Of a stretch of 64,000 nucleotides of DNA, positions 1,232 to 48,800 are shown piece after piece (position 1 is the stretch's first letter; each line of letters starts with the position of its first letter). The notes under the pieces were generated by a model. That model made no database searches. It was not told the origin of the DNA and saw only the letters and a list, made by a program, of their open reading frames with translations. A program made the position numbers and the translations under genes. This DNA is from a virus: positions 1-64,000 of the IMG/VR virus record IMGVR_UViG_3300020810_001160; one strand, written 5' to 3'.

Positions 1232-4200
1232 TTATTCACCATATCCGTTAGAACTATCAATAGCACTTACCGGATCTCCCTCATTCAATTCTGTACTTGC
1301 TGTACCACCAGTGAAAAAGTTCAATGCTAACAATGAGCCTGAAATTCCACCATTTAAATTAGCAATTCTATCTATAACAATTTGTCCTGTTTCTGGAAAT
1401 GCTTCATTGAATATTTCTCTATTTCTTACTTTAATTTGTCCTGCTCTAAATCCAGAAACGTTCAAATTAGCACCACCGCCTGAAACTCTTGAACCTATGT
1501 ATGTTACAATCGCTTTCTGTGTTGGTACAATGTTATCGGAGTTAGCCGCCATTGTAGGATCTGTTGAAAATTCTCTAATTACAACTTCTGTTCCACCCAG
1601 TACAACTCCACCTAATGCTAATTCTGATAATCCTTGTAGATTGAATAAATCTGCGTTAAGTGTTACAATACCAGTTGCCTGTTCAACTTCAAATAATTCT
1701 CCAACACGGAAGTTACCATCTTGGTCAGTTGATGTATAGAAAACTCTACCACCGCCATTGTTTGCTGTTTCTCTAAATGGTTGTGCTTCAAAGCCTGGTG
1801 TAAATCCTGCATTAGTGTAAAGTTCTGGATAATTTGTTGTGCCTAATCCACCAGTACCGATATCTAAGAAATCATGTCCAGTCAATCTAACTTGAGAATA
1901 TTGCTGTCTGATAGTGATTACTGTTTCGTGATCTGGTGATTCGTTTGCTTTTAAACTTGGCGAAATTCTAAATTGTGCTGTGAGATTCGGAGCCACACCA
2001 GATACATTAGTGATCTGTGTTACTCTATAAATTTGATCGTCAATACCAGTGATGTACAACAAGTCACCTGGTCCAGGTTCTCTTGTTAATTCTTTAATTT
2101 GTACAACTTTACCTATTTGATATTCATCAGCAAGTCCATCACCTACAATAGTAGCACTAACATTTATAAATCCTGTTCCTCTGTTTGAGAATGTAGGTTG
2201 TGATAATACACCGTTTGCTATTCTGGCTTGTACTGCCACATCAAGTGTGTTAACATTATCTGTGATTGTTACTGTTGGTGCAGTTGCGTAACCTGATCCT
2301 GTATCAATCAATTGAATTTTTGAAACTTTTCCTGCGTTAGTGATAACTCTTCCTAAAGGTGGTGCACCTTTTTTAATCACAGTTGCGTTTGTCATTAAGC
2401 CTTGTGGCAGTGGAATAAAGTAACCACCGTTGCTTCTTCCACCAACGATTGTTGTGTATGATCCAGACAAAGTTGTTAATTCTTTCCAAGACACAGCATC
2501 ATATGAATAAGCAACTTCACCATTTGTTGTGATTGCTAGATATGTACCTTGTGAGTAAGTTACTGAATAAGGTCCTGTGTGTGGAGGTGTGTCTGATTCT
2601 GTCCATACTGTGATAGCACTTGTTGAACTTTGTGCCGCATTAGCATTTGAAACAAAAAATTTGTTAACTGAAGTTGAATCATCAAATGGTGAATCTTGAA
2701 CTGAAGCAATAAATTTACCACCAGCGAAAGTTAATTCTTGTAATAGATATTTGTTTCCACCAATGTCTGCCGCTAATTCCCAAGTTGTTCCACCATCAAC
2801 AGATTCCCAAGTTTGTCCAAAATTATTTCCTATAATCACTAAACCATTGCCAGCCGCAATTTTAGTAAACACTGGAGTTGATCCATCGTATGGTTCAACT
2901 TGTACTGATTGCCAACTGTTGCCTTCGTCTCCAGAAGTATAAACAACTCCTGTTTCAGCCACAACAACCCATTGTGCAGAAACATTTTCCCAAGCAACGC
3001 CTCGGAATATGTCTGCTCCTATGTTGCTAGATATATCTGACCAGTTTGCTCCATCTTGAGATCTTGCTAAAGTTCCTGTTGAACTAACAGCCATAAAATT
3101 GTTTGCACCACCAACGATGCCGTTCCAGTTTGCTGTTGGTACAGCATTGGCTACTGTCCAGTTTGTTGAATCCACTGTTCTTAAACCTCTACCGTTTCCT
3201 AATAACACAGTAACGTTTGTAGAAGAAACTCTTCTTGAAGCACCTAGTAAGTATTCTCCACTTAATGGTATTGAAGCAGTTGAATTAGCATACGGTGGTT
3301 CACTGAATTGAATTCTTGGTTCGATAAAATATTTTGTTGAAGGATCCAGTTCAGTTGCAATTTTAAATCCACCTAAGAAATGTTGCCATCCAGGTGTATT
3401 ATCAAATTCTTTTTTAACTGTACAAGTTTTTGTTACTTCGTCAAAAGAATCAATTATAGCATATTGTCCTCTACCAGTACCTTCCCAAATATAAATTCGT
3501 TGTCCCACAGTTTGTGCTGATGTGCCTTGGAACTGTTGATTTAATTGAATTGAAGTTGCTGTACCTGTTATTGCAGGTCCTGATTTACTGGTGTAACCAG
3601 CACCACCTGCCGGAGTTGAATCTCCAGGGCCTAATATTCTTACTTTGTTTACAGCACCATCTCTTGTGTTATCGTATGTGATTGATGCCGCCGCACCTTC
3701 TCCTGATCCTGTAATTGTTATATCTGCTTGAGTGTAATCTTGTCCTGCGTGGTCATAAGCAAACGCAAATATTTCATTTTCATCGTTGTATACAGCATCT
3801 ACCTGTGCTTCTTGTGTTTGGTTATTGAATTTTGCTGTGATAGGTGTTTCTGTTGGAGTTACTCCTTCAGCAACTGATCCCCAATCTCCATAAGAGTTAT
3901 TACCGTTGGTTGCTCTAACTTTTCCACCAGCAGTTGCTAGATAACCTATGTGACAGTAGTATGTAAACACAGAAACAAGTTCTGATCTACCTTCTCCGTT
4001 AACCCAGAAACCAATACCTTGATCAATTACCTGTGTAAAGTCGTTGGCAACAATTGATTTGTATCCACCATTGTGTAAATCTCCATCCACTTTTAATCCA
4101 ATACAACCTCTACCAAATGTTGATACGTTTTGTACATAACAAGAACGTGTTGTGATCCAAGCCGAGGCATCTGAAGCACCTGTACCCGGATTTAATGAAA

Positions 4201-6385
4201 CAAAAGAACCACCTGTTGGTCTTCTTGTGCCATACTCGTTGACTGGACCCAATGTGCCAGACAAACCACTTAAAGTCATATTTCTAATACCTGAACCATT
4301 GTTTACATGGAACATATCTTGACCTTCGTAACCTGTTGCTGGTCTGATTTCAGTACTTCTTAATTCATCTCCAACCAATGCTGTGTCTCTTGGTACTTTG
4401 ATCGGAAGTATTTCGTTGTACATTCCTGTTTTAATGAATATTGTTGCTGGTGATCTTTGTCCCAAGTCAGCATTAATAAAATCACAAGCAAATTTAACTG
4501 TTTTAAAAGGAGATGCTAATTGTGTACCTCTATCATCTGCATCAACACCTGCTGGTGAAACATAATAAACTTTTGGAGTTACATCAAAGTCTTCCCAGAA
4601 AGGAATACTGTTTGAACCTACTTTTAATAATTGACCCGATGTTCCAAGACCAATTCTTAATCTTGTAGAATCATCATTTTGTGTTTTGATATCACCAGGA
4701 TATTCCAATACGTTTGGTGTGTGACCTTGTGCTAATAATACCCAATAAGGACCAACATTGTCTGATGCAAAGTCTAACGGTGGTTTAGCATCTGATGAAT
4801 TTGCTTCGTGTTTAAGAATACATTTGTATAAAGTACCTGCTACGGTTACAACATCTCCAGGGAAATAAGTATTTTCTCCTGTAACACCACCAATGCCTAC
4901 TTCAACCCACGGACCTTTGAAAGCATAACCTTCTACAAGTAATTGCCAAGGAAAAGGTGTATCGGTTCCTTCATCATACACACTTCTTGTTGATGGATCA
5001 ACCTGTTGATTGTCTTTTACAGCGATGTAAAGATCACCACCTGCTCTAACAACGTCACCTGTTTTGTACGCTAATGGTAATTCGCCTAGATTAGGATCAA
5101 TATAAGTTGATGACCATTCTCCTTTGAATGTGTAACCTACAATTTGTAATTCCCAAGTGCTTGTGGCATCTGTTACTGCTGGAGTAACACCTATGTTACT
5201 TTGTAAAGCAACGTATGTGTAACCTCCGTAAAGTACCACATCTCCTTGTTGATAATATTTTGATTGGTTCCATAAATCTTCATATTCCAATCCTGGCATC
5301 CACAGATTATAATTAGTTTCATCCATGATTGTGTCAATAGCCCAATGTCCTGTTGCTACTTGCCACATACCCGGTGACCATCTTACTAATTCACCTGGAG
5401 CATATCTTTCACCGAAAGCATAATCGCCTCTGTATCTAATTCCTGTTAATACTGTTTCCCATTGTTGGCTGTTCGCTTCTAGTCCGTCAGTGGAAACGTT
5501 TGCTAAACCATTTACAGAAACTGTTGTTATTGCACCATCAGTAACTGTGTTAATTGTGATCACAGCATCATTGTCAGGAGTTGCTCCTCCAATGCTTGTG
5601 CCTAAAATTGTGAATGTTTCTAGTGCCACATAGTTAGAACCACCGTTTGTGATCTTAACATAATAAGTTGCTCCAACTTTGAAAACAAAGAATTGAAATC
5701 CTGCACCAGCAACTGTTGTAGTAGATGCTACTGTTGGATTAACAAATTTATTTGAAAGTGCTGATCTGTGTCCTGTTTTACATCTATAAACTGTACCACC
5801 ATAGTACACAATATCATCTGGATAATATAAAGTGTTGTTGATCCAATCTCCTCTGAAATTGTCTGATCTTGAATATTGATCCCAATATGCCGCATTGTAT
5901 TGTAAACCATCGTCAGCAGAACCAGAAGTGTGTGCTGTGTTACACTTCCAAATTGATCCACCGTAGATTACTGTTTGGTCAACGTTATAAAGAGTATTTG
6001 GAGTCCATACACTTGCCCAATCTTCTCCACGAGCAAAGTATACCCATTTCAATTCGTCACCTAATACACCATTGCTGGCAGATGCATTTGAAATATGTCC
6101 TTCAATACATTTGTAAATTAAACCACCAACTTTAACTAGTTCACCTACTTTGTAAAAAGTAGAAGGTTGCCAAGCACCTGTCCAACTTTGCCCGTCCATC
6201 ATTTGTGACCAACGAGGAGTTGAGTTGTTTAAATCATTATAAAAATTTGAATCTGATGTGTGTACTTCGATACAAACAAAAACTTTTGCACCATATCTTA
6301 ATACATCATCTTTAACATAAAGAGTGTTGGCTGTCCAATCACCTCTCCATCTAAATCTTATCCTATCTATACGAAAATCTGCCAT
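1232..6385 (-). CDS. Giant multidomain tail fibre/adhesin (1717 aa)
   Basis: A large late virion protein. Residues 1-560 contain about eight W..G.W / GD.V.YGG..Y.C..H modules like those of the adjacent partial gene. From about residue 604 (YYVSPAGVDADDRGT...) a right-handed beta-helix of the pectin-lyase type follows, with the usual 'YVS..G.D..G....PF.T...A' entry motif. Residues about 1070-1315 hold repeated 'S.DG..W' and 'G..F.A.S..G' units like BNR/Ycf48 beta-propellers. The C-terminal part is beta-rich and has the segment 'GFTPGFEAQPFRETANNGGG', followed by a collagen-free tail. No catalytic residues were recognised. The ATG at 6385 has an AGGAA ribosome site and a GATAAATA late promoter 18 bp upstream. 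The likely role is host-surface binding. It could instead be a neck whisker or decoration fibre. Confidence 0.8.
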   Translation of the reverse strand: MADFRIDRIRFRWRGDWTANTLYVKDDVLRYGAKVFVCIEVHTSDSNFYNDLNNSTPRWSQMMDGQSWTGAWQPSTFYKVGELVKVGGLIYKCIEGHISNASASNGVLGDELKWVYFARGEDWASVWTPNTLYNVDQTVIYGGSIWKCNTAHTSGSADDGLQYNAAYWDQYSRSDNFRGDWINNTLYYPDDIVYYGGTVYRCKTGHRSALSNKFVNPTVASTTTVAGAGFQFFVFKVGATYYVKITNGGSNYVALETFTILGTSIGGATPDNDAVITINTVTDGAITTVSVNGLANVSTDGLEANSQQWETVLTGIRYRGDYAFGERYAPGELVRWSPGMWQVATGHWAIDTIMDETNYNLWMPGLEYEDLWNQSKYYQQGDVVLYGGYTYVALQSNIGVTPAVTDATSTWELQIVGYTFKGEWSSTYIDPNLGELPLAYKTGDVVRAGGDLYIAVKDNQQVDPSTRSVYDEGTDTPFPWQLLVEGYAFKGPWVEVGIGGVTGENTYFPGDVVTVAGTLYKCILKHEANSSDAKPPLDFASDNVGPYWVLLAQGHTPNVLEYPGDIKTQNDDSTRLRIGLGTSGQLLKVGSNSIPFWEDFDVTPKVYYVSPAGVDADDRGTQLASPFKTVKFACDFINADLGQRSPATIFIKTGMYNEILPIKVPRDTALVGDELRSTEIRPATGYEGQDMFHVNNGSGIRNMTLSGLSGTLGPVNEYGTRRPTGGSFVSLNPGTGASDASAWITTRSCYVQNVSTFGRGCIGLKVDGDLHNGGYKSIVANDFTQVIDQGIGFWVNGEGRSELVSVFTYYCHIGYLATAGGKVRATNGNNSYGDWGSVAEGVTPTETPITAKFNNQTQEAQVDAVYNDENEIFAFAYDHAGQDYTQADITITGSGEGAAASITYDNTRDGAVNKVRILGPGDSTPAGGAGYTSKSGPAITGTATSIQLNQQFQGTSAQTVGQRIYIWEGTGRGQYAIIDSFDEVTKTCTVKKEFDNTPGWQHFLGGFKIATELDPSTKYFIEPRIQFSEPPYANSTASIPLSGEYLLGASRRVSSTNVTVLLGNGRGLRTVDSTNWTVANAVPTANWNGIVGGANNFMAVSSTGTLARSQDGANWSDISSNIGADIFRGVAWENVSAQWVVVAETGVVYTSGDEGNSWQSVQVEPYDGSTPVFTKIAAGNGLVIIGNNFGQTWESVDGGTTWELAADIGGNKYLLQELTFAGGKFIASVQDSPFDDSTSVNKFFVSNANAAQSSTSAITVWTESDTPPHTGPYSVTYSQGTYLAITTNGEVAYSYDAVSWKELTTLSGSYTTIVGGRSNGGYFIPLPQGLMTNATVIKKGAPPLGRVITNAGKVSKIQLIDTGSGYATAPTVTITDNVNTLDVAVQARIANGVLSQPTFSNRGTGFINVSATIVGDGLADEYQIGKVVQIKELTREPGPGDLLYITGIDDQIYRVTQITNVSGVAPNLTAQFRISPSLKANESPDHETVITIRQQYSQVRLTGHDFLDIGTGGLGTTNYPELYTNAGFTPGFEAQPFRETANNGGGRVFYTSTDQDGNFRVGELFEVEQATGIVTLNADLFNLQGLSELALGGVVLGGTEVVIREFSTDPTMAANSDNIVPTQKAIVTYIGSRVSGGGANLNVSGFRAGQIKVRNREIFNEAFPETGQIVIDRIANLNGGISGSLLALNFFTGGTASTELNEGDPVSAIDSSNGYGE

Positions 6386-6414: not shown

Positions 6415-6789
6415 CTAACTTTCATAAGGTTCTACATATCCTGGATATGTATGAGCCTCGTTCACTTTTAATACTAATTCTCCCTCGTTGTTTACATAAT
6501 AAAATAGGTTTCTACCGTCCCATTTGTACTGTTCGTACACAAGATTTGGATAAACTTTTCTATGTTGTTGATCTCTGCCTTCAAAAAAGTCTTCACCTCT
6601 GCTCCAGTTGTTGTAATTTTCGTCAACATTTCCTGGTCTATTCAATTGAACACCATCTTCAAGTTTTAGTAAGTCTGCTTTCACCATGTATAATTCGCCG
6701 GCATCAGTTCTACGCAAACCGTAGAAATATCTATTGTTTGCTAGTGTTTTTTGTAACTCGTCTATGCCTACGCCAAATACTTGTGCCAT
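6415..6789 (-). CDS. Small virion protein, paralogue A (124 aa)
   Basis: The function is not recognised. The product shares a clear core with the 153-residue protein at 8414-8875: YFYGLRRTD.G.LY..K.D.L......(L/I)N.PGN.D.N.....G.DFFEGRD..H.K...NL.YEQ(Y/F)(K/R)WD..NL.YY.N..GELV..(V/I)N. The two are diverged duplicates flanking the 531-residue fibre protein. The position inside a run of late virion genes suggests a small structural protein such as a fibre adaptor. No convincing ribosome site precedes the ATG, and the gene lies 11 bp after its upstream neighbour, so translational coupling is plausible. Confidence 0.7.
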   Translation of the reverse strand: MAQVFGVGIDELQKTLANNRYFYGLRRTDAGELYMVKADLLKLEDGVQLNRPGNVDENYNNWSRGEDFFEGRDQQHRKVYPNLVYEQYKWDGRNLFYYVNNEGELVLKVNEAHTYPGYVEPYES

Positions 6790-6800
6790 TTAATAACTCA

Positions 6801-8396
6801 CTATGTTATATTAATTGTATTACCCATTAATGCGTGTGCTGTACATTGGTAATATAAAGTGTTTGGAGCATCCATTGGAACTTCAAACACAATATTACCT
6901 GATGCCGCACCATTGTTTGTTACACCTGATGTGTACGCCGCTCCACCATTAGAAACTCTAATTTGGAATGGGTGACTACCACCAGATAAATTTTCAAATA
7001 TGTATGTGTGTCCTCTTGACAAATACAGTACTGGATCGTTAGTAGTTACAGGAAATCCTGGTCCTGAGAAAGTGTAATCACTTGAACCATTAGCACCTAA
7101 TCTCCAAGTTAATACTGGACCATTCTTCTGTTCCCAACGTGTTCCATTGAAATATAAAACATTTCCTTGTGAAGGTGCTACAGAAACACCGTTGCTTGCC
7201 GCACTTGAGAAAAGGTGAGCAGATGTGTCTGGAGATATACCAACATTCACTGTGATCGAATTTGATGTTGTTGATGTAATCGCTATCGGCGTGTTGTACG
7301 CTGGATCAGTTACTCTTGGATACGAGTGAACCGTAGCATGATTATCTGTTGCACAGGTAAACACTATACTTCCGCCTTTGATGATTACTTTTTGTCCAAC
7401 TATTAATGAGTGCGTACCAATTGTCATTGTTAACACACCTGTTGCACCTGAATAAGTTGCACCAGTAACAGTGAATTTTTGTAATGCTAAATCAACGTCA
7501 GACAGTTCATTTAGAATTGTTGCACCTGTTGTGGCAGTTGAAAATTCTAATCCTGTTCCTGCTGAATTAACTTTTACAAATCTATTTGCCGCACCTGTGT
7601 AACTTGAAGGTGTGTCAGTTAGTGCTGTTAATGTTGTTGCGATAGTTGGTTTATTGTTTAAGTTGTTGTAGTTCAAATAGTATGTGCTGTCTAAACCATC
7701 TAATGTGTCTGCGTCTGATCCACCAGCACCTGAAGTTGCATCAGTGCCTGGTACCCAGTTTGTACCGTTCCATTTTAAAACGTTACCTGCTACCGGCGCC
7801 GAAGTTGTTGTGTCAACATCTGATAGTGCGTCTATTGAAAATGCTGAAACAATTGTTAAACCGTCTGATGTACCATTTACTCTTAAAAAACCGCCTGCTA
7901 ATCCACCGTAATCTGATGGAGTATCTGTAAGATCAGTAAATGTTGAGGCTCCATCGCCGCCGCCACCTTGAGCGGCAACGTTTCCTGGTTTCCATTTTTG
8001 AGCGCCAGCATCATAAATTAATGCTTGACCGTTTGTAGGAGTTGCTGAAGATGTATCAACGTCAGCAAATATATCGATAGATTTATTCTCATCTGCAAGT
8101 TTTACCCAAGCACCTGAGTGAGCGTAGTAGGAGGCATTCTCACCATGTACATGAGCAAACATTCCATGATACGTTGCCGCATCTGGTAATTCTGCTAGAG
8201 TGTTGTATAAAAATGTAATTTTGTTTGCACCTGTGGCTGTGATCAAATTGTTATTAACAATGGTCAGTGCTGTGCCGTTACCAAGTGCAGTGTATAATTC
8301 ACCGAAGTTGGCATTTATTTTTCCACCGGCGTCCCTTAACGAGTCACCTTGACCGTCATTCGGGATAATACCAGTGTTTATCAGTTGTCGTGTCAT
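6801..8396 (-). CDS. Fibre protein with C-terminal cupredoxin-like domain (531 aa)
   Basis: The N-terminal and middle parts carry repeated fibre units of the type 'L.DV.......G..L.(W/Y)(N/D)G..W.PG' and 'L.DTPS.Y.G.....VN..GTGL', common in phage fibres. The last ~95 residues form a separate domain: 'DPVLYLSRGHTYIFEN', then 'GGSHPFQI', a 'GVTNNG' turn, and 'LYYQCTAHALMGNTINI'. This is the layout of a blue-copper (cupredoxin) domain. His475, Cys518, His521 and Met524 occupy the type-1 copper ligand positions, with the C-x2-H-x2-M spacing seen in amicyanin. The start at 8396 has a strong AGGAGG ribosome site. The fibre role follows from context. Copper binding is inferred from the ligand pattern only. 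Confidence 0.8.
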   Translation of the reverse strand: MTRQLINTGIIPNDGQGDSLRDAGGKINANFGELYTALGNGTALTIVNNNLITATGANKITFLYNTLAELPDAATYHGMFAHVHGENASYYAHSGAWVKLADENKSIDIFADVDTSSATPTNGQALIYDAGAQKWKPGNVAAQGGGGDGASTFTDLTDTPSDYGGLAGGFLRVNGTSDGLTIVSAFSIDALSDVDTTTSAPVAGNVLKWNGTNWVPGTDATSGAGGSDADTLDGLDSTYYLNYNNLNNKPTIATTLTALTDTPSSYTGAANRFVKVNSAGTGLEFSTATTGATILNELSDVDLALQKFTVTGATYSGATGVLTMTIGTHSLIVGQKVIIKGGSIVFTCATDNHATVHSYPRVTDPAYNTPIAITSTTSNSITVNVGISPDTSAHLFSSAASNGVSVAPSQGNVLYFNGTRWEQKNGPVLTWRLGANGSSDYTFSGPGFPVTTNDPVLYLSRGHTYIFENLSGGSHPFQIRVSNGGAAYTSGVTNNGAASGNIVFEVPMDAPNTLYYQCTAHALMGNTINIT

Positions 8397-8413: not shown

Positions 8414-8875
8414 TTATCCTCTATCGAATGTTATTTCATTACTATCCATTAAGTAATTTGTTTTATCTAATGTGAATATTGTTGCTTCTCTAATTAAGTT
8501 TTCATCAGTTTGTGGATAAGTTATTACACCATCACCCACGTTACTGTTAATTCTTACAACTAATTCACCGTCGCTGTTTATGTAATAATTTAAATTTACA
8601 TCGTCCCATCTAAATTGTTCGTACCTTAAATTTTTAAAAGGTTTAGCATGATTTAAATCTCTACCTTCAAAAAAATCGTAGCCTTGATCAAAATCTTTAA
8701 AGTTATCATCAATGTTTCCTGGATTGTTTATTGATACAGGATCGTTTGCTGATAGTTGGTCCACTTTACCAATGTATAAATCTCCTTCGTCGGTTCTTCT
8801 CAAACCGTAAAAGTATCTATCTTTGATACCATTTTGAAGATATACTGATGTATCCTGACCAACGGTGTTTGACAT
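8414..8875 (-). CDS. Small virion protein, paralogue B (153 aa)
   Basis: A paralogue of the 124-residue protein at 6415-6789. It shares the YFYGLRRTD.G core, the DFFEGRD motif and the 'YYINSDGELVVRIN' strand region. It has about 30 extra C-terminal residues (TDENLIREATIFTLDKTN). The ATG at 8875 overlaps the end of the 110-residue gene upstream with almost no gap, so the two are probably co-translated. No known enzyme motif is present. A role as a small structural protein associated with the fibres is inferred from position. Confidence 0.7.
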   Translation of the reverse strand: MSNTVGQDTSVYLQNGIKDRYFYGLRRTDEGDLYIGKVDQLSANDPVSINNPGNIDDNFKDFDQGYDFFEGRDLNHAKPFKNLRYEQFRWDDVNLNYYINSDGELVVRINSNVGDGVITYPQTDENLIREATIFTLDKTNYLMDSNEITFDRG

Positions 8876-9216: not shown

Positions 9217-12200
9217 CTATCCTAATGCCAGTGCATATTCCACTGCAATTTCTGTTGCATCAATAATACTAACAGCACCCGACGAACCTGCGATAGATCC
9301 CCATTGGATACCATCATAAAGTTCAACACGTTGATCTGCGGTGTTGTAACGTATCATACCTGTTATCGGTGTTACTGGTCTATTTGCTGTTGTTCCAACC
9401 GGAAGTACAAATCCACCAGAATCTGACACATCAATATATCCTGTTCCTGTGGTTTTAAACACAATCGGAGCAGATATAATATTAGTTATCGCATTTCCTT
9501 CAAATTTGAAGTCTTCAATCCTGATACTACCATTTCCTTGAGCATTTAGGATCAAATCTTGGTCAACACCAGTGGTTGTCAGTGTATTTCCAGTGATTTG
9601 AATGTCGTCTACAAGTAAACTTGTGACATCAAATCTAGTAGGATTCACATTTGCTACCAAAACTCCACCAGCATAAAATCTAATTGTGTCATCATTAGCA
9701 CCTGGTGTCAATTCTGCTGTGATGTATGTGTCTCGATCTAAATCATAAACACCCGTTAATGCAATCCAGTTTGTTCCGTTGTATCCTTCAAACACAGAAT
9801 CGTCTGTGTTATATCTCATCATACCTGCTGATGGAGAGCCTGGTCTTTCAGCAGTTGTTCCTGTTGGAATTTTTAATGATCCTGTACCAGTTACTTTGAA
9901 AACTCCTGATGCAGGATTTACTATAAAATCGCCTGTGTTATTAGACATTGTGTCACCTGACACAGTAAAGTTTTCAAATTTTACAGAACCTGTACCACTT
10001 GCTCTTAATTCTAAATCTGCGTTTGTGTCATTGGTTTGAATAACATTTGTATTAATATTAACTGAATCAATCTGTGCTTCATTGGCAAATACTGTGTTCC
10101 ATCTTTTTGTGGCAGAACCAATGTTGTATGTGTTGTCTTGTGCTGGAATAATATCTGATCCTATACCTGCTGTGATATTAATTGAATCTGTTGTTTCATC
10201 ACCAATTGTGACATTGCCACCTATTGTGATATCTCCTGTTACATCGAGATTTCCATCAATATTAACATTGTCCACAAAATTAATTTGATTACTGAAAGCA
10301 TCTAAATTTAAATCACCTGATGTGGTTGTTACTTCATTGCCAGAAATTTTTACATTACCTGTTTCAATTGAATTACCTGAAATTACAGTAACATTTGGAC
10401 CTGATGTAAATGTAAGTGCTTGATCAACATCTATGTTTAATGATGCTGATGTAAAGTTAACTTGTCCTGTATTTTGATTTACATGAAATTGATCACCAAC
10501 TCTAAAGTCACCTTTATGGTCAACAGATGAATAATAAATTTTAGCATTGTTAGATGTAACCACTTCATTGGCTTGAATAACTGTAACTTCATCATTATCT
10601 GTTTCGTAGTCGTTACCAATATAGGCAAAATTGTGAGATATCAAATACATTTTTACACCGACACCATCTCCTACTGCTCCATATGTTCCGTAGATTGATG
10701 CTGATGCTATTGATCTTACTTCTGCACCAAAGTCTGTATAATCAACCAATGTGAAGTTGGTTGCTGTTGCTCCTGTTGAAAATCTAATATCTTGAACAGC
10801 AATGTTTGTGTCTAATAAAACAGTTGATCCATTTGGTCCATTAAATCTAGAAACTAAAACTGTGTCTGGATTTCCAATAGCCTCTGTTGTTGGAGGAGTA
10901 AAGTTTGCTGTTCTAATTGCTGAACCTTTGTAAATTACAAAGTCGTCTATGTTACCAATAAAGCCATTGTTGTTGTCATAGTTGTTACCCATCACAAGAG
11001 GTTTTGCCGCACCTAAATCATTTGCTAGAGTTGTACTTCCAACATTTTGTCCAGCAATGTACATTGTAACTGTTGATCCATTTCTCACAATTGAACAATG
11101 TGTCCAAGTGTTTAAATTAAATCCTTGAGAACCTGTAATAACGTTAGCACCATTTACATATAATTTTGGTGCGTTGTTTGTGAGATACAACATCAAAGAA
11201 TATTCAATCGACTGATTGTTTCTAAAATCAAACAGTGTTGTAGATTGTAATTGAGTTGCGTATGCCCAGAATTCAATAGTGAAATTACCAGTGCCGAATC
11301 CAAAGTCTGCTGTGGTTGAAATAGAAGCACTATCTCCTATTCCATCCAACAGCAAACTAGCCTGTCCAAACTTCTTAACATTGGTATCTAATTGTGCATC
11401 ACCATTGGCAGTTATTTGTTTGCCAGTGGTTTCAGGTGGTAAAGCAAAACCAGTTGACTTACCATCTATAATAATTTTTCCATTGTCTACAGATTCAACT
11501 GTGCCGGTACCTAATACAGTAACACCATCCACATCATAATATGTGATCACGTGTCCAGGTGCTATAGGTGTACCTGTAAATCCAGAAACTCTTAATTGTG
11601 TTTTTCCATCTTCTGCTAAACCAGATACACCATCTACTGCGTAGATACTTCTTGCCGCAAAATAAGTGAACGAGTTTAACCATTCAATACGCACACCGTT
11701 TGTTAATGTGATTGCATCCACACCTGGTGTTATAAATGTTGCATTTTGAAACAAACAACTTGCTTCGTTTGAAGCCGGAGTTGCTACTGCACCATCTAAT
11801 AGAGCACCTTTACCAGCATCTCCGGATCCAAATCCTCTTGGATCTTGTGCTGTGGTTATTGAACCTTGTGTGATTACAGATACGTTTCTAATGTAAGGTG
11901 ATCTTGAACTGATCTGAAAGCCTGTTGAATCATCTGCACCTGTTGAATTAAATCTAAATGCGTGTCCTGTATTAGCAACACTGTTGTAATAAAATCCTGT
12001 AACTGTTAAATCTTCGATCGTCACTTCACCATTAAGAATGAAAGCATCTTGACTATTTGTTAAGGCACTGGGTTGAATTGTTACTGCTCTTAATCCGTCA
12101 CCTCTGATTGAAACTCCTGTTGGAACAACCAAAGGAAAATCTTCTGTGTATGTGCCTGGATATATGTAAATGTGATCTCCTGCCACTGCCACTGATAATG

Positions 12201-12948
12201 CTTGTTCAATAGAAGCATAAGGATCGTTTTGGTGCGTTCCTGATTTAGCATCATCGCCGTTGGTTGCAACATATATCACCTTTCCAGGACGTGCTGTTAA
12301 GTCAAGTCCTTGTACTGTGATGTTGCCAGAAAGTGTTAGATTATCTACAATTAAGTTGTTGGCATATGCATTGTTCCAACGTTTTGTAGGTGTACCTAAA
12401 TTATAAGTGTCTGATTGATCTGGTGTTAAATTAGATGTGATATCAGCATTGATCGTGATTGAATCTGTGTCTGAATCTCCAATGGTAATGTTACCATCTG
12501 CTCTAATATTACCAGTTGCGTGAATATTTCCGTTTACTCTAGTGTTACCGTGTACTTCGACGATACCCGTTCCGCTTGTTACTATTTCAAAATTTTGATT
12601 AGAATCTGTTGCTGTGATGGAATTTCCATCGATTATTAAATCATTAACAAATATCCTATTGTTGTAAATGATGCCATCAGCGGCTGAAAAATTTAATTGT
12701 GGTGCTGTGGTACTGATTGTGTTGCCAGATACTCTGACATTGCCCACATCTAATTGTCCTGTAACTTCTGCATTTACTGTACGTGCTGTTCCATTTACGT
12801 CTAATGGATACTGCGGAGTAGCGGTTTTTATGCCGATCCTGTTGTTATTAACATCAATGTATAACAGGTTAGTCTCAAAAGCCAAGTCTGCTCCATTACG
12901 CAGAAGATTGGACTTTAAGAGCTGACCCGAAATTCGACCAACGGCCAT
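9217..12948 (-). CDS. Tail fibre with beta-helix and LamG insertion (1243 aa)
   Basis: The N-terminus 'VGRISGQLLKSNLLRNG.DLAFET.LLY.D' is shared with the 947-residue paralogue. Two blocks of the marine-phage fibre unit 'GNI.IGD...DSI...A.I.S...P.Q..TYN(L/I)G..TKRWN' follow. Residues about 226-480 form a pectin-lyase-type beta-helix beginning 'YVATNGDDAKSG' with 'YPGTYTEDFPLVVPTGVSIRGDG'. Residues about 526-690 are a LamG/concanavalin-like domain ('NFTIEFWAY', 'WTHCSIVRNG', 'GNIDDFVIYKGSA') that is absent from the paralogue. The C-terminus has two 'GTTA.RP..P..GM.RYNT....E.Y.G..W' capping units. The start has a clear AAGGAG site. The gene is preceded by a ~130-nt leader and a late promoter. 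The role is host attachment by inference. Confidence 0.85.
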   Translation of the reverse strand: MAVGRISGQLLKSNLLRNGADLAFETNLLYIDVNNNRIGIKTATPQYPLDVNGTARTVNAEVTGQLDVGNVRVSGNTISTTAPQLNFSAADGIIYNNRIFVNDLIIDGNSITATDSNQNFEIVTSGTGIVEVHGNTRVNGNIHATGNIRADGNITIGDSDTDSITINADITSNLTPDQSDTYNLGTPTKRWNNAYANNLIVDNLTLSGNITVQGLDLTARPGKVIYVATNGDDAKSGTHQNDPYASIEQALSVAVAGDHIYIYPGTYTEDFPLVVPTGVSIRGDGLRAVTIQPSALTNSQDAFILNGEVTIEDLTVTGFYYNSVANTGHAFRFNSTGADDSTGFQISSRSPYIRNVSVITQGSITTAQDPRGFGSGDAGKGALLDGAVATPASNEASCLFQNATFITPGVDAITLTNGVRIEWLNSFTYFAARSIYAVDGVSGLAEDGKTQLRVSGFTGTPIAPGHVITYYDVDGVTVLGTGTVESVDNGKIIIDGKSTGFALPPETTGKQITANGDAQLDTNVKKFGQASLLLDGIGDSASISTTADFGFGTGNFTIEFWAYATQLQSTTLFDFRNNQSIEYSLMLYLTNNAPKLYVNGANVITGSQGFNLNTWTHCSIVRNGSTVTMYIAGQNVGSTTLANDLGAAKPLVMGNNYDNNNGFIGNIDDFVIYKGSAIRTANFTPPTTEAIGNPDTVLVSRFNGPNGSTVLLDTNIAVQDIRFSTGATATNFTLVDYTDFGAEVRSIASASIYGTYGAVGDGVGVKMYLISHNFAYIGNDYETDNDEVTVIQANEVVTSNNAKIYYSSVDHKGDFRVGDQFHVNQNTGQVNFTSASLNIDVDQALTFTSGPNVTVISGNSIETGNVKISGNEVTTTSGDLNLDAFSNQINFVDNVNIDGNLDVTGDITIGGNVTIGDETTDSINITAGIGSDIIPAQDNTYNIGSATKRWNTVFANEAQIDSVNINTNVIQTNDTNADLELRASGTGSVKFENFTVSGDTMSNNTGDFIVNPASGVFKVTGTGSLKIPTGTTAERPGSPSAGMMRYNTDDSVFEGYNGTNWIALTGVYDLDRDTYITAELTPGANDDTIRFYAGGVLVANVNPTRFDVTSLLVDDIQITGNTLTTTGVDQDLILNAQGNGSIRIEDFKFEGNAITNIISAPIVFKTTGTGYIDVSDSGGFVLPVGTTANRPVTPITGMIRYNTADQRVELYDGIQWGSIAGSSGAVSIIDATEIAVEYALALG

Positions 12949-13123: not shown

Positions 13124-15967
13124 CTAGTTTAATATCAGGTTATAAATGGTATTCAAATCGTTGGCTAGTTCTCTGGTCACTGTGACCTCTTGTACACCAA
13201 TGGATTGAACCCATCCATCTGCCGCGCCAGCATACACCTGTAACTCCTTATTGTCTGTGTTGAACCACAAGGCTCCCAATCTTGGTACTGTTGCGTTTCT
13301 TTGTGCTTCAGTTCCATATGGTCCTACGTAACCGTTTGTGGTGTCAAATTGAACTGTTCTGTTCTGTTTTAAGCCTGTTCCAGTAATGGTAATATCAGCA
13401 TCAACAACTGTGTTTTCTATCAAACCACCAGTTATTTCAAGGTTTGCTGTGTCCAGCACAACTTTACCTGCACCGTTGGCTATCAATGCGGCTTGCCCAC
13501 CTATACTGCCCACAGTTACAGTGTTGTTATCCAGTGCAAACTGATTTTGACTGGAAAATCTAGTAACCCTTAAATTACCCAAGCCGTCTATTTCACCTAT
13601 ATTATTCGATCCTGCGTAAAAAGTAAATTTATTATTGTTTAATTCTATTGCAGTATTTCTATCACCATCTTTAATTCCATTCAGTGCTATTTTGCCTGTG
13701 GAGAACATTTCAAATTCGTTCAAAGATGTATCATATCTAATGGCATTTCCTTCAGCAGGATCTTGAGCAGTTGTACCTTTAGGAATTTCAATGTTGGATA
13801 ATCCTACAAATTGTAAACTGTTTCCACTGACCCCAAATCCTAGATCTCCTTGTGATGATGTGATTGTTGTTTTAAATCCAATACCTTCTAAATTAACTTT
13901 ACCTGTGCCACTGCCTCTTAATTCTATGTCAGAGTTTGTGTCTGTGGCTTGTATGATGTTGTTGTGAACTTCTAAACTGCCTGTTGAAAATCTTGTGCTT
14001 TCTAGATTCTGCCAACGCTTTGTGCTGGATCCTATATTACTTTGAGTATCTTGACTTGGTAATAAATCTTGTTGAAAGTCCATAGCAAAATCCACAGTGT
14101 CACCTGCTTCATTTCCAAAATTAATTGCAGATCCTCCAATAGTTACATTGCCTGTAACATCAACGTTTGGCATCAATACATTTGAATTTAAATTTACATT
14201 ATTAGATCCAGCCGCACTAATTGTTAATCCGCCTTGTAAAGTTTGTATTTTGTTGTTTGAAATTCTAAAATTGGGAACATCTATTTTTGTAGCATCTATT
14301 AAAGTTGTTGTACCAGCCACACCAACAGTAAGTGTTGAAGCACCTAAATCTCCATCATTTACAGCAATTGATGTTGTGCCTTTGCCAAAGTCAATTATAA
14401 AATTGTCACCAACTCTAAAGTCTCCTCCTTGATCTTGACTGACATAATAGATTCTACCGCTGTTAGTTTCTTCTGTTTCGTTATTTTGATCAATTAAAGA
14501 TTCATCGTTTTCGACATCTTTACCTGAACCAACATAAGCAAAATTATGAGATATAGCATAGCCTTTTGTGTTTAATCCATCTGCTGTGATACCTTTATTA
14601 CCGTACACACTGGCAGAAGCAATTATTCTTGCTTCAGAACCACTTAATAATTTTATACTGGTATCGGAAAAATATGTAAAACAATCTATAATTTCTGCTC
14701 TGGCTTGATTTTTTAGTGTTATACCGTCTGCCCCTGGTGTAATAAAAGTGACTGCGTTGAACAACATTGATGCTCTTGGAGAGGCATTGTCTAATACCGA
14801 TCCATCTACCAATGCGCCTTTACCAGCATCACCCGAATCAAAACCTCTTGGATCATCTACAGTTCTTGTTTCTCCTTGCGTAAGAACTGTAACGTTTTGT
14901 ATGTATGGAGATTTTGTAACAATACCGGCATTTGGTGCAAATCTAAAAGCATAACCTTTATCATTTACAGCATCATATTGAAAATCTTTAATAGTTAATT
15001 CTGAAACCATGGACGCATCATTTAACAAAAATGCATCTTGAAATCTTACTGGTACTTTTGGTTTAATAATTACCGATCTGATGCCGGCACCTTTAACAGT
15101 TACGTTTGCTGGTACTTCTAATGGAAATTCTTCTATGTAAGTGCCGGGTAAAATGTGTACTTCATGTGGACCATTTGTGCTTTCTTCTAACTGTTGAAGT
15201 GCGTGTTTGATTGTGCCAAAAGCAAAGTTAGGATGATTTCCTGTTAATAAATCTGTTCCGTTAGTACTCACATACCACTTGTTCTCTATACCTAAGTTTA
15301 CTCTTACACCTGCTAGTGAGATTGTATTATCAACAACAATATCATTCAATCCAGTCATTGCTTGAACATTTACTTGTCCCCAACGTTGATCCGTTTGTCC
15401 AATATTGTATATTCCTGTTTGATCTGGAATTAGATCAGATTCTATATCTCCTTCAAAACTTAATGTGTCGTCTTGACTGTCTCCACCGATAAAAATATTT
15501 CCATCAAATGTGATATCGCCTGTGGCTCGAATATTTCCATAAGTTTTTAAATCTGATGGAATGTTAAAAATACCTGTGCCTGGACCTGGGTGGATATTGA
15601 TATTATCATTGTTGTATGCTCTAATTCCGCTGTTTGTAAATGCTAAATTGTCTGTTCGCAATTCAGTCATTTGAAAACTAGAACCTGCAATCATATTGAT
15701 TGGACCTGTCAGTGTTGAAACAGTTTGTGTAGGACCGTCAATATCGATATTACCTACCGATGCAGAATTAGTTGCTATTAGATTTCCTCTGTAAATAGCA
15801 TCTCCGCTTACTTGTAAATCTCTTGTAGGAGCGTCATTTCTTACACCAATTTTACCATTAGTGTGTCCAATAAACAATAAGTCTGTTTCAAAAGCCAAAT
15901 CACTATTTCTAGTTAGATTTGCTTTCAATAATGGACCTGATATCCTACCTACATTGGTTACTGGCAT
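13124..15967 (-). CDS. Tail fibre with beta-helix (947 aa)
   Basis: A paralogue of the 1243-residue fibre. It has the same N-terminus (VGRISGPLLKANLTRNSDLAFET), two 'SNIGSSTKRWQNLE'-type units, and a pectin-lyase-like beta-helix from about residue 229 ('WYVSTNGTDLLTG', 'LPGTYIEEFPLEVPANVTVKGAG'). It also has the 'ISHNFAYVGSG' and 'YYVSQDQGGDFRVGDNF' blocks that the larger paralogue shares. It lacks the LamG domain. The C-terminus ends with a 'YGTEAQRNATVPRLGALWFNTDNKELQVYAG' type cap and a short helix. The start at 15967 has a textbook AAAGGAG site. The likely role is a receptor-binding or decoration fibre acting at the virion surface. Confidence 0.85.
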   Translation of the reverse strand: MPVTNVGRISGPLLKANLTRNSDLAFETDLLFIGHTNGKIGVRNDAPTRDLQVSGDAIYRGNLIATNSASVGNIDIDGPTQTVSTLTGPINMIAGSSFQMTELRTDNLAFTNSGIRAYNNDNINIHPGPGTGIFNIPSDLKTYGNIRATGDITFDGNIFIGGDSQDDTLSFEGDIESDLIPDQTGIYNIGQTDQRWGQVNVQAMTGLNDIVVDNTISLAGVRVNLGIENKWYVSTNGTDLLTGNHPNFAFGTIKHALQQLEESTNGPHEVHILPGTYIEEFPLEVPANVTVKGAGIRSVIIKPKVPVRFQDAFLLNDASMVSELTIKDFQYDAVNDKGYAFRFAPNAGIVTKSPYIQNVTVLTQGETRTVDDPRGFDSGDAGKGALVDGSVLDNASPRASMLFNAVTFITPGADGITLKNQARAEIIDCFTYFSDTSIKLLSGSEARIIASASVYGNKGITADGLNTKGYAISHNFAYVGSGKDVENDESLIDQNNETEETNSGRIYYVSQDQGGDFRVGDNFIIDFGKGTTSIAVNDGDLGASTLTVGVAGTTTLIDATKIDVPNFRISNNKIQTLQGGLTISAAGSNNVNLNSNVLMPNVDVTGNVTIGGSAINFGNEAGDTVDFAMDFQQDLLPSQDTQSNIGSSTKRWQNLESTRFSTGSLEVHNNIIQATDTNSDIELRGSGTGKVNLEGIGFKTTITSSQGDLGFGVSGNSLQFVGLSNIEIPKGTTAQDPAEGNAIRYDTSLNEFEMFSTGKIALNGIKDGDRNTAIELNNNKFTFYAGSNNIGEIDGLGNLRVTRFSSQNQFALDNNTVTVGSIGGQAALIANGAGKVVLDTANLEITGGLIENTVVDADITITGTGLKQNRTVQFDTTNGYVGPYGTEAQRNATVPRLGALWFNTDNKELQVYAGAADGWVQSIGVQEVTVTRELANDLNTIYNLILN

Positions 15968-20138: not shown

Positions 20139-21320
20139 TTAACTGAATGATGTGTTCGATACACCGATCGTTTCAACATAATCAGCCGCGTTACCTAAAG
20201 ATGACGCTGTGTTGTTTAACTCTACATAACCATATCTAGTCATGAAAGAAACAACTGGCTCAAAAGTTGATGGATCTAGAACAACACCAGAAGACATTAA
20301 CGGAATGTATGGGCAATAGAATGCCGCCGCATCTGCTTCTGATGATCCTTTGTAACCAACAAGTACATCTGTACTGTCAGCCGCATAAGTGTCAACATAT
20401 ACTTTCATCGCACTGTTTAAAGTTCCAACGAATTTTTGGTTAGTTGGTGCTTCAAACGTACCTTCAGTTGTTCTTGCGAACGCTGAAGTTGTAGCAGACT
20501 GAAGTACTGTTAATGCTAATGGAGATACCACTGCAAAATTACCAGCACCACGTCTTGTGTTTTGTGCGATTTTGTTAGCCGCTCTGTTGATTAATACAGC
20601 CAAAGCCGCGTGTTCATCACCTACGAAAGTCGCAGTTCCTGATACAGCCGCTTGGTTGTATGTTCCAGATGATTGAGCACCTGCAAGTGATCTTAATGAA
20701 GTGATGATCTCTTGGTCGATTTCAGCAGTAATTTCTTGTGCTAATGCCGCCATGATTTCAGCCTCTACATCAATACCTTGTTGTGCTTGTGCATCTTGAG
20801 CAGATTCAAATGTCCATCTTGCTTGTAACTTACGAGTTTTTGCTTCAACTGTTTGTTTCAAGATTTGGATTGACATTGCTCTACCACCAGTACCTTCTTT
20901 AGTTGCTGTTGCATCACCTTTAGCAGTTGTTAAACTACCTGAGTATGCTTGAGCAATTTTGAATGGTGATAGTGCTTCTTCACCTGCCGCCGTGTCTGTG
21001 TTGATAGCAGAAGTGTCGTTTGTTGTTTCTGCGTATCTAACTCTTAGTGTGTGGATTTGACCAACTGGGCCAGTCATTGGTTGAACTCCAACCAATTCGT
21101 TAGCGATTACAGTAGGCATAACCCTTCTGATCACCGGTAGGATCACTCTGTTTAAAGTAGCAACGTTACCTGCAGATGTAGCACCTGCTGTCGCAGACTC
21201 TGAAAGATACTTTTTAGTATTTTCTAAAGTCGCTTCCATCACGGCTTTTTTATTGCCTGATAGACCTTCTAATAACGCACTCTTTGTGTCCTGCCAGCGA
21301 GTTTCTGTTAGTTCTGACAT
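20139..21320 (-). CDS. gp23: Major capsid protein gp23
   Basis: The T4-family major capsid protein, which assembles as hexamers around the scaffold and is trimmed by gp21. The sequence has the expected early segment 'NRVILPVIRRVMPTVIANELVG' followed by 'VQPMTGPVGQIHTLR'. A middle region 'AEIMAALAQEITAEIDQEII' and the 'VVSPLALTVLQSA' and 'FYCPYIPLMSSGVVLDPSTFEPVVSF' motifs follow, in gp23 order. At 393 residues it is shorter than T4 gp23 (521) and similar to marine relatives. It follows gp22 by 18 bp with an AAAAGGAG ribosome site and is terminated by a strong hairpin. Confidence 0.95.
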   Translation of the reverse strand: MSELTETRWQDTKSALLEGLSGNKKAVMEATLENTKKYLSESATAGATSAGNVATLNRVILPVIRRVMPTVIANELVGVQPMTGPVGQIHTLRVRYAETTNDTSAINTDTAAGEEALSPFKIAQAYSGSLTTAKGDATATKEGTGGRAMSIQILKQTVEAKTRKLQARWTFESAQDAQAQQGIDVEAEIMAALAQEITAEIDQEIITSLRSLAGAQSSGTYNQAAVSGTATFVGDEHAALAVLINRAANKIAQNTRRGAGNFAVVSPLALTVLQSATTSAFARTTEGTFEAPTNQKFVGTLNSAMKVYVDTYAADSTDVLVGYKGSSEADAAAFYCPYIPLMSSGVVLDPSTFEPVVSFMTRYGYVELNNTASSLGNAADYVETIGVSNTSFS

Positions 21321-45891: not shown

Positions 45892-48800
45892 ATGGCATAC
45901 GATAATGATCAAAAAGATTTCGAATTGCCCGCAGGCAAAGACAATGGTAAAAGAAAGTCTGCTGAATTCTTACCTAAATATTTTAGAACTCCAGTAAATC
46001 AAAAATTTTTACACAGCACACTTGATCAATTAATTTCTCAAGGAACTCTTGAAAAGTTAAATGCTTATTACGGAAGAAAAGTTACAAGTGCTTACACTTC
46101 AGGTGATTTATATGTGCCTGAAATAAGTGCTGATAGAGAAAACTATAAATTTGAACCATCTGTTGTTCAAAAAGATGATCTAGGAAATGTAAATTTTTAT
46201 TCAGATTATATCGATTTTGTAAATCAAATTGCCAACTATAATGGCGACACATCTAATCACAGTGTTTTGAATGCTCAAGAATATTATGCTTGGTCTCCTA
46301 AAATAGACTGGGACAAGTTTGTAAATTACAGAGAATATTTTTGGATGCCATATGGTGCATCTACAGTATCTATAAACGGACAACAACGAAATGTTGTCAG
46401 CACATACACAGTTACAAAAAGTGATCAAGGTGACAACTATGCTTACATTTTTACTCCAGATGGTTTAACGGCGAATCCTACATTAAAATTATACAAAGGA
46501 CAAACATACAAATTTGAAATTGATGCTGAAGGATTACCTTTGGTTTTTAGAACACAAAGAATATTAGACGAAAGTTATAATTTCAATGATGGTATAGATG
46601 TTCAAGCAGTTGAAAAAGGCATAATAACTTTTCAGGTAAAAGATTCAACACCTGAAAAATTATATTATGGTTCATCAAATGATATCAATGCTTGGGGATT
46701 AATCCAAGTGTTTGACATTGAAGAGAATTCAGCCATCGATGTTACCAATGAAGTATTAGGTAAGAAAAATTATACCACTGCTGACGGAGTTGCTCTTTCT
46801 AATGGAATGAAAGTTAATTTCAAAGGCACAGTTACTCCAGCACAATATGCCGAAGGAGATTACTATGTAGAGGGTGTAGGCGAAGCAATTCAACTTATTA
46901 ATTCTCAGAATTTAGAAGTGGTCAGTAGTTTTACAAACAGTGTGCCCATTCCATTTGATTCCCAAAATTTTGATACAGTGGGTTTTGGAACAGCAACATC
47001 ATATGCTGTCAATAAAGACTATGTGGTCATTAATAGATCATCACCAGAAGGAAGTCCATGGACAAGACACAATAGATGGATACATCGTTCAGTTATTGAA
47101 GCCAGTGCCAGTGCAAATGGTCAAGTTGCAGACATAGATCAAACTTCAAGAGCACGTAGACCTATTATAGAATTTGAAGCAGGTATTAAACTATACAACT
47201 TTGGAACATCGAGCAAAGGCAATGTAGATTTAATAGACACAGTGACTAAAGATGTAATGAGCGACATAGAAGGATCTGAAGGATTCTACGTTGATGGTAT
47301 TGCTGTTACAAATGGTTTAAAAATATTGTTTACAGCAGATACAGATCCGTTGGTGAAAGATAAAATTTATCAAGTAAAATTTATAGACCTTGAACTAAAT
47401 GGAATAAAAACCAACCAAGTAAGTTTAGTAGAAGTTGCAAATGCTTCACCGAAAGAAGGTGAAACAGTTTTAGTTACTAATGGTGTAAAAAACCAAGGCA
47501 AATGGTATCATTATAACAATGGTTGGAAAACATCACAAGCGAAAACAAAAACTAATCAAGCACCATTGTTTGATCTTTTTGATAGCAATGGCAACAGTTA
47601 CACAGATGATATATTATACCCAAACAGTTCGTTTCGGGGAAATAAAATATTTTCATATGCAGTCGGAACAGGCACTAACGATACTGAATTAGGATTTCCA
47701 TTAACTTATCAAAACGTTGAAAATGTTGGCGATATTGTTTTCAACTTTGATTTATTAAATCAATCATATGTGTATGAATCACAAACATTAAGTGGAACAC
47801 TTGCTTCAGAAACAGCATTTTTAAAAAAATACAATGCTCAAGGACAATTTGCCACAGTGAATGGTTGGTCTAAGGCACCAACAAAAAGTTTTCAAAAAGT
47901 AAACAGACAATATGTAGCCAGCACTAATCAATTGAACGATTTTGCTGTAGACGTGTATGACAAAAGTGGTGATTTAAATGATTTAGGAGTAAAAGTTTTT
48001 GTTAACAACAAAAAGAAAACACAAAACGTTGATTGGTATATTTTAAGAGTAGATTCAGTTGCTTATGTAAAATTTTACACAAATCTAAAAGCCAATGATG
48101 TTGTTTTAATTAGAACAACCAGTGCCACTGACAAAAATGCTAATGGACATTATGAATTTCCAACAAATTTACAGTCTAATCCATTAAATGACAAAGTAGT
48201 TACATTCACAGTTGGACAAGTGACTGATCACGTAAAATCAATCACTAATGAGTTGACAGATATACAAGGTGTCACACCAGGAGTAAGCAATTTAAGAGAT
48301 TTTCCAAATGCTACATTGTATGGAAGAAAATTTTTACAACACAGTGGACCAATGGTGTTGTCTTCATATTTGTTGAATAACAAAGAAGTCAATTTAATTT
48401 CGGCAATATCACAAAGTCAAACAGACTACTACAAATTTAAAAGATCATTTGTGAGTGCTATGGACGATTTGGGATTTGACGGTACATCAGTACAAATAGT
48501 TGATAAAATTTTAGAAAAACTTAATAAAGACTCCAACGATAATCTTCCTTATTTTCAAACAGATATGTTTGGAGTAGGTGCATATATTAGCACAACACAC
48601 GAAGTATTAGATGTAGACAGTAAATTTTTTGCTTTAAAAAACAGTCATAATCTTTCTACTCTATCAAATAAAGCAGTGTATGTGTATCTGAACGGTGATC
48701 AATTACTTCACGCACATGACTATATTTTTACTGATGGTTTTGTTCAAGTAACTAAAACTTTAACTTTAGATGACACTATTGTTATTAATGAATTTGAAAC

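Follow-up and report, generated by a model that had tools for sequence, protein, structure and literature searches.

A predicted cupredoxin-fold domain with a type-1 copper ligand set at the C-terminus of a T4-like baseplate connector

Results

A baseplate connector gene of the T4 gp9/gp10 type, located in a stretch of viral DNA of 64,000 nucleotides (the window), encodes a C-terminal domain which is predicted to fold as a cupredoxin and which carries an intact type-1 ligand set: His475, Cys518, His521 and Met524. The domain is most likely a metal-binding, probably copper-binding, module with a structural or docking role. Fold and ligand order are found at the level of prediction, while the threshold of the Copper-bind family is not reached and an export signal is absent; for this reason the domain, as modelled, is described as a cupredoxin fold with a type-1 ligand set, rather than as a proven copper protein. 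The initial annotation, which proposed a copper or redox centre, or a metal-dependent surface-binding site, at the tip of a virion fibre, is confirmed in its observation and partly supported in its interpretation.

The connector gene and its genomic setting

The window is part of a virus record of 100,593 bases, which carries T4-like genes for capsid, portal, hub lysozyme and baseplate wedge. The connector gene lies at 6801-8396, on the minus strand (531 amino acids; the coordinates include the stop codon). Residues 3-56 (8229-8390, minus strand) match the N-terminal T4_gp9_10_N domain (Pfam PF07880) with 32.9 bits, above the curated cut-off of 25; PHROG 677, "baseplate wedge tail fiber protein connector", is matched at 9e-86 in three stretches, the best of which covers residues 184-530 of 531. 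The best PHROG matches of the neighbours at 9217-12948 and 13124-15967 are baseplate wedge proteins, and that of 1232-6385 is a tail fibre. The N-terminal domain, the PHROG 677 match and the wedge neighbours make the cupredoxin-like domain the C-terminal end of a connector between baseplate and fibre and argue against an adhesive fibre tip, the location first assigned to it. No hydrophobic leader, as expected of an export signal, was seen on inspection of the connector sequence, the N-terminus of which is occupied by the gp9/10 domain.

Some other features of the region may be mentioned. Two small genes of the phrog_8997 family, whose function is unassigned, flank the connector gene, one on each side (6415-6789 and 8414-8875, both on the minus strand). 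The capsid protein (20139-21320, minus strand) is closest to those of phages Phosso, Vibrio 2.275.O and PA5oct (67-70% identity), while the isolates closest to the connector are cyanophages, at about 40% identity: with a capsid related to large T4-like phages and a connector related to cyanophages, the virion is a mosaic. Within the connector, an H-V-H triplet at residues 82-84 (8145-8153, minus strand) resembles the HxH iron motif of T4 gp37; its positions are not kept in the consensus of a 29-row alignment.

Predicted fold of the C-terminal domain

The domain spans residues 428-531 (6804-7115, minus strand): its C-terminal place is as originally annotated, but its length, about 104 residues, slightly exceeds the claimed 95 or so. 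The AlphaFold2 model, obtained from an alignment of 32 domains (A1), features nine strands, with a mean pLDDT of 96.9; the model of the full-length connector is of low confidence (pLDDT 65.3, pTM 0.32), and the C-terminal domain is its best part. When the domain model was compared with the PDB by Foldseek, all 11 matches at E<=0.001 were copper cupredoxins, including plastocyanin, nitrite reductase, rusticyanin and a laccase. VIA-align superposed it on a Cu nitrite reductase (N-terminal domain), with Z 11.2 and an rmsd of 1.9 A over 91 residues. Model and structural matches agree on a cupredoxin domain: it is predicted to be a Greek-key beta-sandwich, superposable on proteins of the plastocyanin type.

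In domain numbering, His475, Cys518, His521 and Met524 correspond to H48, C91, H94 and M97. In the model, H48 is located two residues ahead of strand 50-53, strand 86-91 ends at C91, and H94 and M97 lie in the loop preceding the final strand, 98-103. These are the strand and loop places at which cupredoxins hold copper. Clustering of the four residues, a point raised with the first annotation, was assessed indirectly, from these strand positions and from the superposition.

The putative ligands and their sequence links to copper proteins

All four residues are found where they had been reported: the codons of the putative ligands are located, on the minus strand, at 6972-6974 (His475, the first ligand), 6843-6845 (Cys518, the sole cysteine of the domain), 6834-6836 (His521) and 6825-6827 (Met524, the axial ligand). 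They follow the type-1 order, His, Cys, His, Met, the last three preceding the last strand. The C-x2-H-x2-M spacing, likened from the outset to the amicyanin loop, is correct and in register with amicyanin in a profile alignment. The bare pattern C..H..[MQLE] is weak by itself, with 39 occurrences when all six frames of the window are counted, mostly out of frame. The first His is followed by Pro, while in plastocyanin and amicyanin the first ligand His is usually followed by Asn; this counts against the copper reading.

The A1 profile, run against PDB sequences, yielded 24 matches at E<=10. Copper cupredoxins fill the first 13 ranks and make up 17 of the 24 (best E 0.0057); the other seven are unrelated proteins, such as titin. 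On amicyanin the alignment is free of gaps over residues 25 to 69 and sets H48 on residue 53; C, H and M fall on residues 92, 95 and 98. These four residues are the copper ligands of amicyanin. With a broader profile (A3, 29 rows, of which 16 were chosen among matches with all four ligands), 57 of the 60 matches at E<=1 are cupredoxins, the best at 8.6e-6. Here C, H and M are in register with plastocyanin 2plt; the first His coincides with that of 2plt, yet falls two places off His53 of amicyanin. NCBIfam matches among the 29 members (E<=0.01) are to halocyanin (5), amicyanin (2), plastocyanin, rusticyanin and L31 (1 each).

Masking of the four ligand columns changes the picture. The unmasked A1 profile reaches a bacterial cupredoxin at 2.7e-6, with the best reversed decoy at 0.35; after masking, the corresponding values are 0.083 and 0.22, which is decoy level, and ligand-independent recognition of the fold by the A1 profile is absent. 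It is thus the ligand motif that carries the sequence link to cupredoxins, while the link by fold comes from the predicted model. The window domain has no match to PF00127 (Copper-bind) at E<=10 and does not reach its curated cut-off, while 9 of the 32 relatives match weakly (best 6.6e-4); one relative, L175 (a 535-aa frame), scores 20.8 bits when taken singly and 21.2 together with its neighbours, at a cut-off of 21.2. For PF25489 (At5g54830-like domain), the window domain scores 12.8 bits, below the cut-off of 27; weak matches at E up to 10 are found in 19 of the 32 members (best 0.0013), and a genome scan gave none in 9 genomes and none in 14 controls, so that it carries no information on the domain.

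Conservation and loss of the ligands

The ligands are kept by most homologues. His-Pro and C..H..M are in place in 55 of the 57 distinct domains of the first search round, and all four ligands in 32 of the 33 representatives under 85% identity, the 33rd (L045), ligand-less, having been left out of A1. The complete set (HCHM) is present in 119 of 131 distinct matches among all loci collected up to that stage, and in 159 of 185 distinct domains of at least 55 residues, after three search rounds and the addition of 19 named phage loci; these sets include a few true bacterial cupredoxins. A failure of homologues to keep the residues had been named as one way to refute the proposed site; these counts do not refute it. 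A chance motif is likewise countered by the ligands of the 32 representatives, by the profile matches to cupredoxins and by the predicted cupredoxin fold.

The set is incomplete in 26 of the 185 domains. Five of them retain His-Cys-His and differ at the axial Met only (Gln in two, Lys in three), the position which varies most among known type-1 sites. The ligand-less copies, which occur in the same class of proteins and keep the fold signature, indicate that the fold can work without metal. One of them is a second copy of the domain in the window itself, located at 46402-46710, on the plus strand, within a 4883-aa ORF (45892-60543): it was found by iterated profiles (1.4e-16 and 6.2e-16), and L, S, D and A are aligned to the four ligands. 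As it occurs in the virus which carries the connector copy, it provides a natural copper-free control.

The existence of such ligand-free copies, one of them at 46402-46710, keeps serious an explanation which we regard as unlikely on the whole, namely that the fold is just an Ig-like adhesion or docking sandwich, in which the four residues are kept for loop packing. H48 is often retained in the 185-domain set where C, H and M are gone, so that the first His may serve packing, and the columns of G35, F40 and Y89 are as conserved as those of the ligands, so that conservation alone cannot single the latter out. The pattern of loss speaks for a site. Judging from the alignments, the Cys, the second His and the Met are mostly lost jointly: of 32 representatives that share less than 50% identity, 24 have both C91 and H94, 7 have neither, one has H only and none C only, while for C91 and M97 the corresponding figures are 23 with both, 8 with neither, one with C only and none with M only (raw counts, kinship ignored; two representatives are bacterial cupredoxins and some are partial). 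The neighbouring Tyr residues, in contrast, often stay where the three are lost. Also at odds with mere packing, the only invariant columns of A3 (H48, P49, Y89, C91, H94 and M97) include all four ligands, an invariance which is partly by choice, since 16 of the 29 rows were selected for HCHM. Moreover, the set recurs in a very divergent branch, fetched with a very divergent copy as query: HCHM is found in 57 of 75 distinct domains of at least 70 residues and in 11 of 15 representatives, one of the six search patterns having included the C..H..M loop.

Distribution of the domain

By tblastn, the domain is found in 350 of 50,697 phage records, mainly those of cyanophages, which by the first word of their names are Synechococcus (260), Cyanophage (55), Prochlorococcus (25) and others (10). 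The proteins carrying it are gp9-type connectors, products of genes in the tail region of P-SCSP2 and P-GSP1, two small Prochlorococcus phages, a protein labelled as S8 peptidase and a virion structural protein of S-TIM5, encoded near the portal gene. The gene directly after gp9 encodes a second, divergent HCHM copy in S-SM1, S-RIM12, S-E7, P-SSM4 and others, and this gene downstream of the cyanophage gp9 (loci L170 and L192-L197) is T4-GC 399 where so annotated; one virion may therefore have several such proteins. In BFVD, the domain model has 58 viral matches at E<=0.001, proximal tail fibre proteins among them. Four small proteins from Pithovirus LCPAC302/304 and Marseillevirus LCMAC201/202, labelled "beta-sandwich proteins" (A0A481Z7Q7, A0A481Z6J5, A0A481YWX9 and A0A481YY19), match it at E of about 1e-6 to 1e-5. 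No match was found in 72,556 plasmid records at E<=0.01.

The presence of the ligand set on a baseplate domain of a marine phage, and in most of its ocean-virus relatives, suggests that the particles carry copper. In a broader form, which is possible, if rather doubtful, marine T4-like particles would be copper proteins, with dozens of type-1 sites per virion, on baseplate, fibre and neck proteins; copper from the host or from seawater would control their stability or adsorption, and the copper-free copies would be a derived second use of the domain.

Discussion

Proposed role and alternatives

The reading which we favour, with somewhat better than even confidence, is that the C-terminus of the connector is a cupredoxin-fold metal site, likely for copper, acting as a structural or docking staple. 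Each chain, through the beta-sandwich with its intact type-1 set, would bind a single metal ion; the nature of the ligands makes copper the most likely one. Virion assembly takes place in the cytoplasm, in which cells hold copper at very low levels: this counts against the copper reading, and, if the reading holds, the site is probably filled later. Loading would take place away from the reducing cytoplasm of the host, at the cell surface or once the cell has lysed, and the ion would most likely fix the C-terminal loop, so stabilising the head domain, to which the tail fibre or the next protein of the baseplate may in turn be docked.

A different use of the same site, a redox-active blue copper centre working in infection, by surface sensing or electron exchange or by docking on a host copper-uptake receptor, is highly improbable. 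The complete ligand set and the amicyanin-like loop are what such a centre would feature, and several virion proteins per phage carry the set, as gp9 and the product of the next gene do in S-SM1 and P-SSM4; we know, on the other hand, of no partner or electron-transfer chain on a virion.

It is also improbable that the metal of the site is Zn, Fe or Ni, acquired in the cytoplasm like the structural metals of other phage fibres. Within a cupredoxin fold, the ligands His-Cys-His-Met are those of type-1 copper, and all four are retained in 159 of the 185 copies; Met is rare in Zn and Fe sites. Assembly in the cytoplasm, for its part, favours Zn or Fe over Cu. PMC11705849 describes iron in HxH sites of T4 gp37 and proposes iron sites in tail fibres of marine phages, such as R22Y gp12.

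Novelty and significance

Among the matches listed in the library searched, there was no paper on a cupredoxin domain in a phage baseplate, tail fibre or virion. PMC10966104, in the portions consulted, names copper as grid material only; a paper on Borgs, PMC9605863, was the one match for cupredoxin together with cyanophage. Some of these proteins possibly bear an automatic "cupredoxin" label in annotation services such as InterPro. The cupredoxin kind is known; its service in a phage baseplate, with the ligand set complete, appears to be undescribed in the literature searched.

Should copper be bound, the machinery with which a very common type of marine virus infects its host would feature a classic redox metal centre, phage infection would be tied to marine copper chemistry, and the idea of metal in phage tails would be widened from iron to copper. 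Even without metal, the prediction accounts for the fold of a domain which is common among cyanophage structural proteins and lacks annotation.

Comparison with known systems

With amicyanin and plastocyanin (PF00127) the phage domain shares the fold and, as in amicyanin, the order His...Cys-x2-His-x2-Met; a Tyr two residues before the Cys is common to both, as is, in most copies, a Thr or Ser after it. It differs in being fused to the C-terminus of a baseplate protein, without an export signal, in having His-Pro instead of His-Asn and, for the window domain, in scoring under the Pfam threshold. The best superposition is on the N-terminal cupredoxin of three-domain Cu nitrite reductases (2dv6, 6tfd, 6tfo), where, unlike here, the cupredoxin is part of an enzyme, and identity is 20%. 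The likeness to PF25489, a family named after a plant protein, is weak.

T4 gp9 and gp10, as well as the cyanophage "gp9" (T4-GC 398), resemble the window connector in the T4_gp9_10 domain, in PHROG 677 and in the neighbourhood of wedge genes. We know of no cupredoxin domain in T4 gp9 and gp10, whereas the C-terminal part of the window connector is a cupredoxin-like domain. The iron-bearing fibres, T4 gp37 and R22Y gp12 (PMC11705849), are also tail proteins with a conserved metal-ligand motif, for which metal carriage by marine virions is proposed; their sites, however, are octahedral and of HxH type, while the connector domain would hold its ion by a putative His-Cys-His-Met set of a single chain, within a cupredoxin fold.
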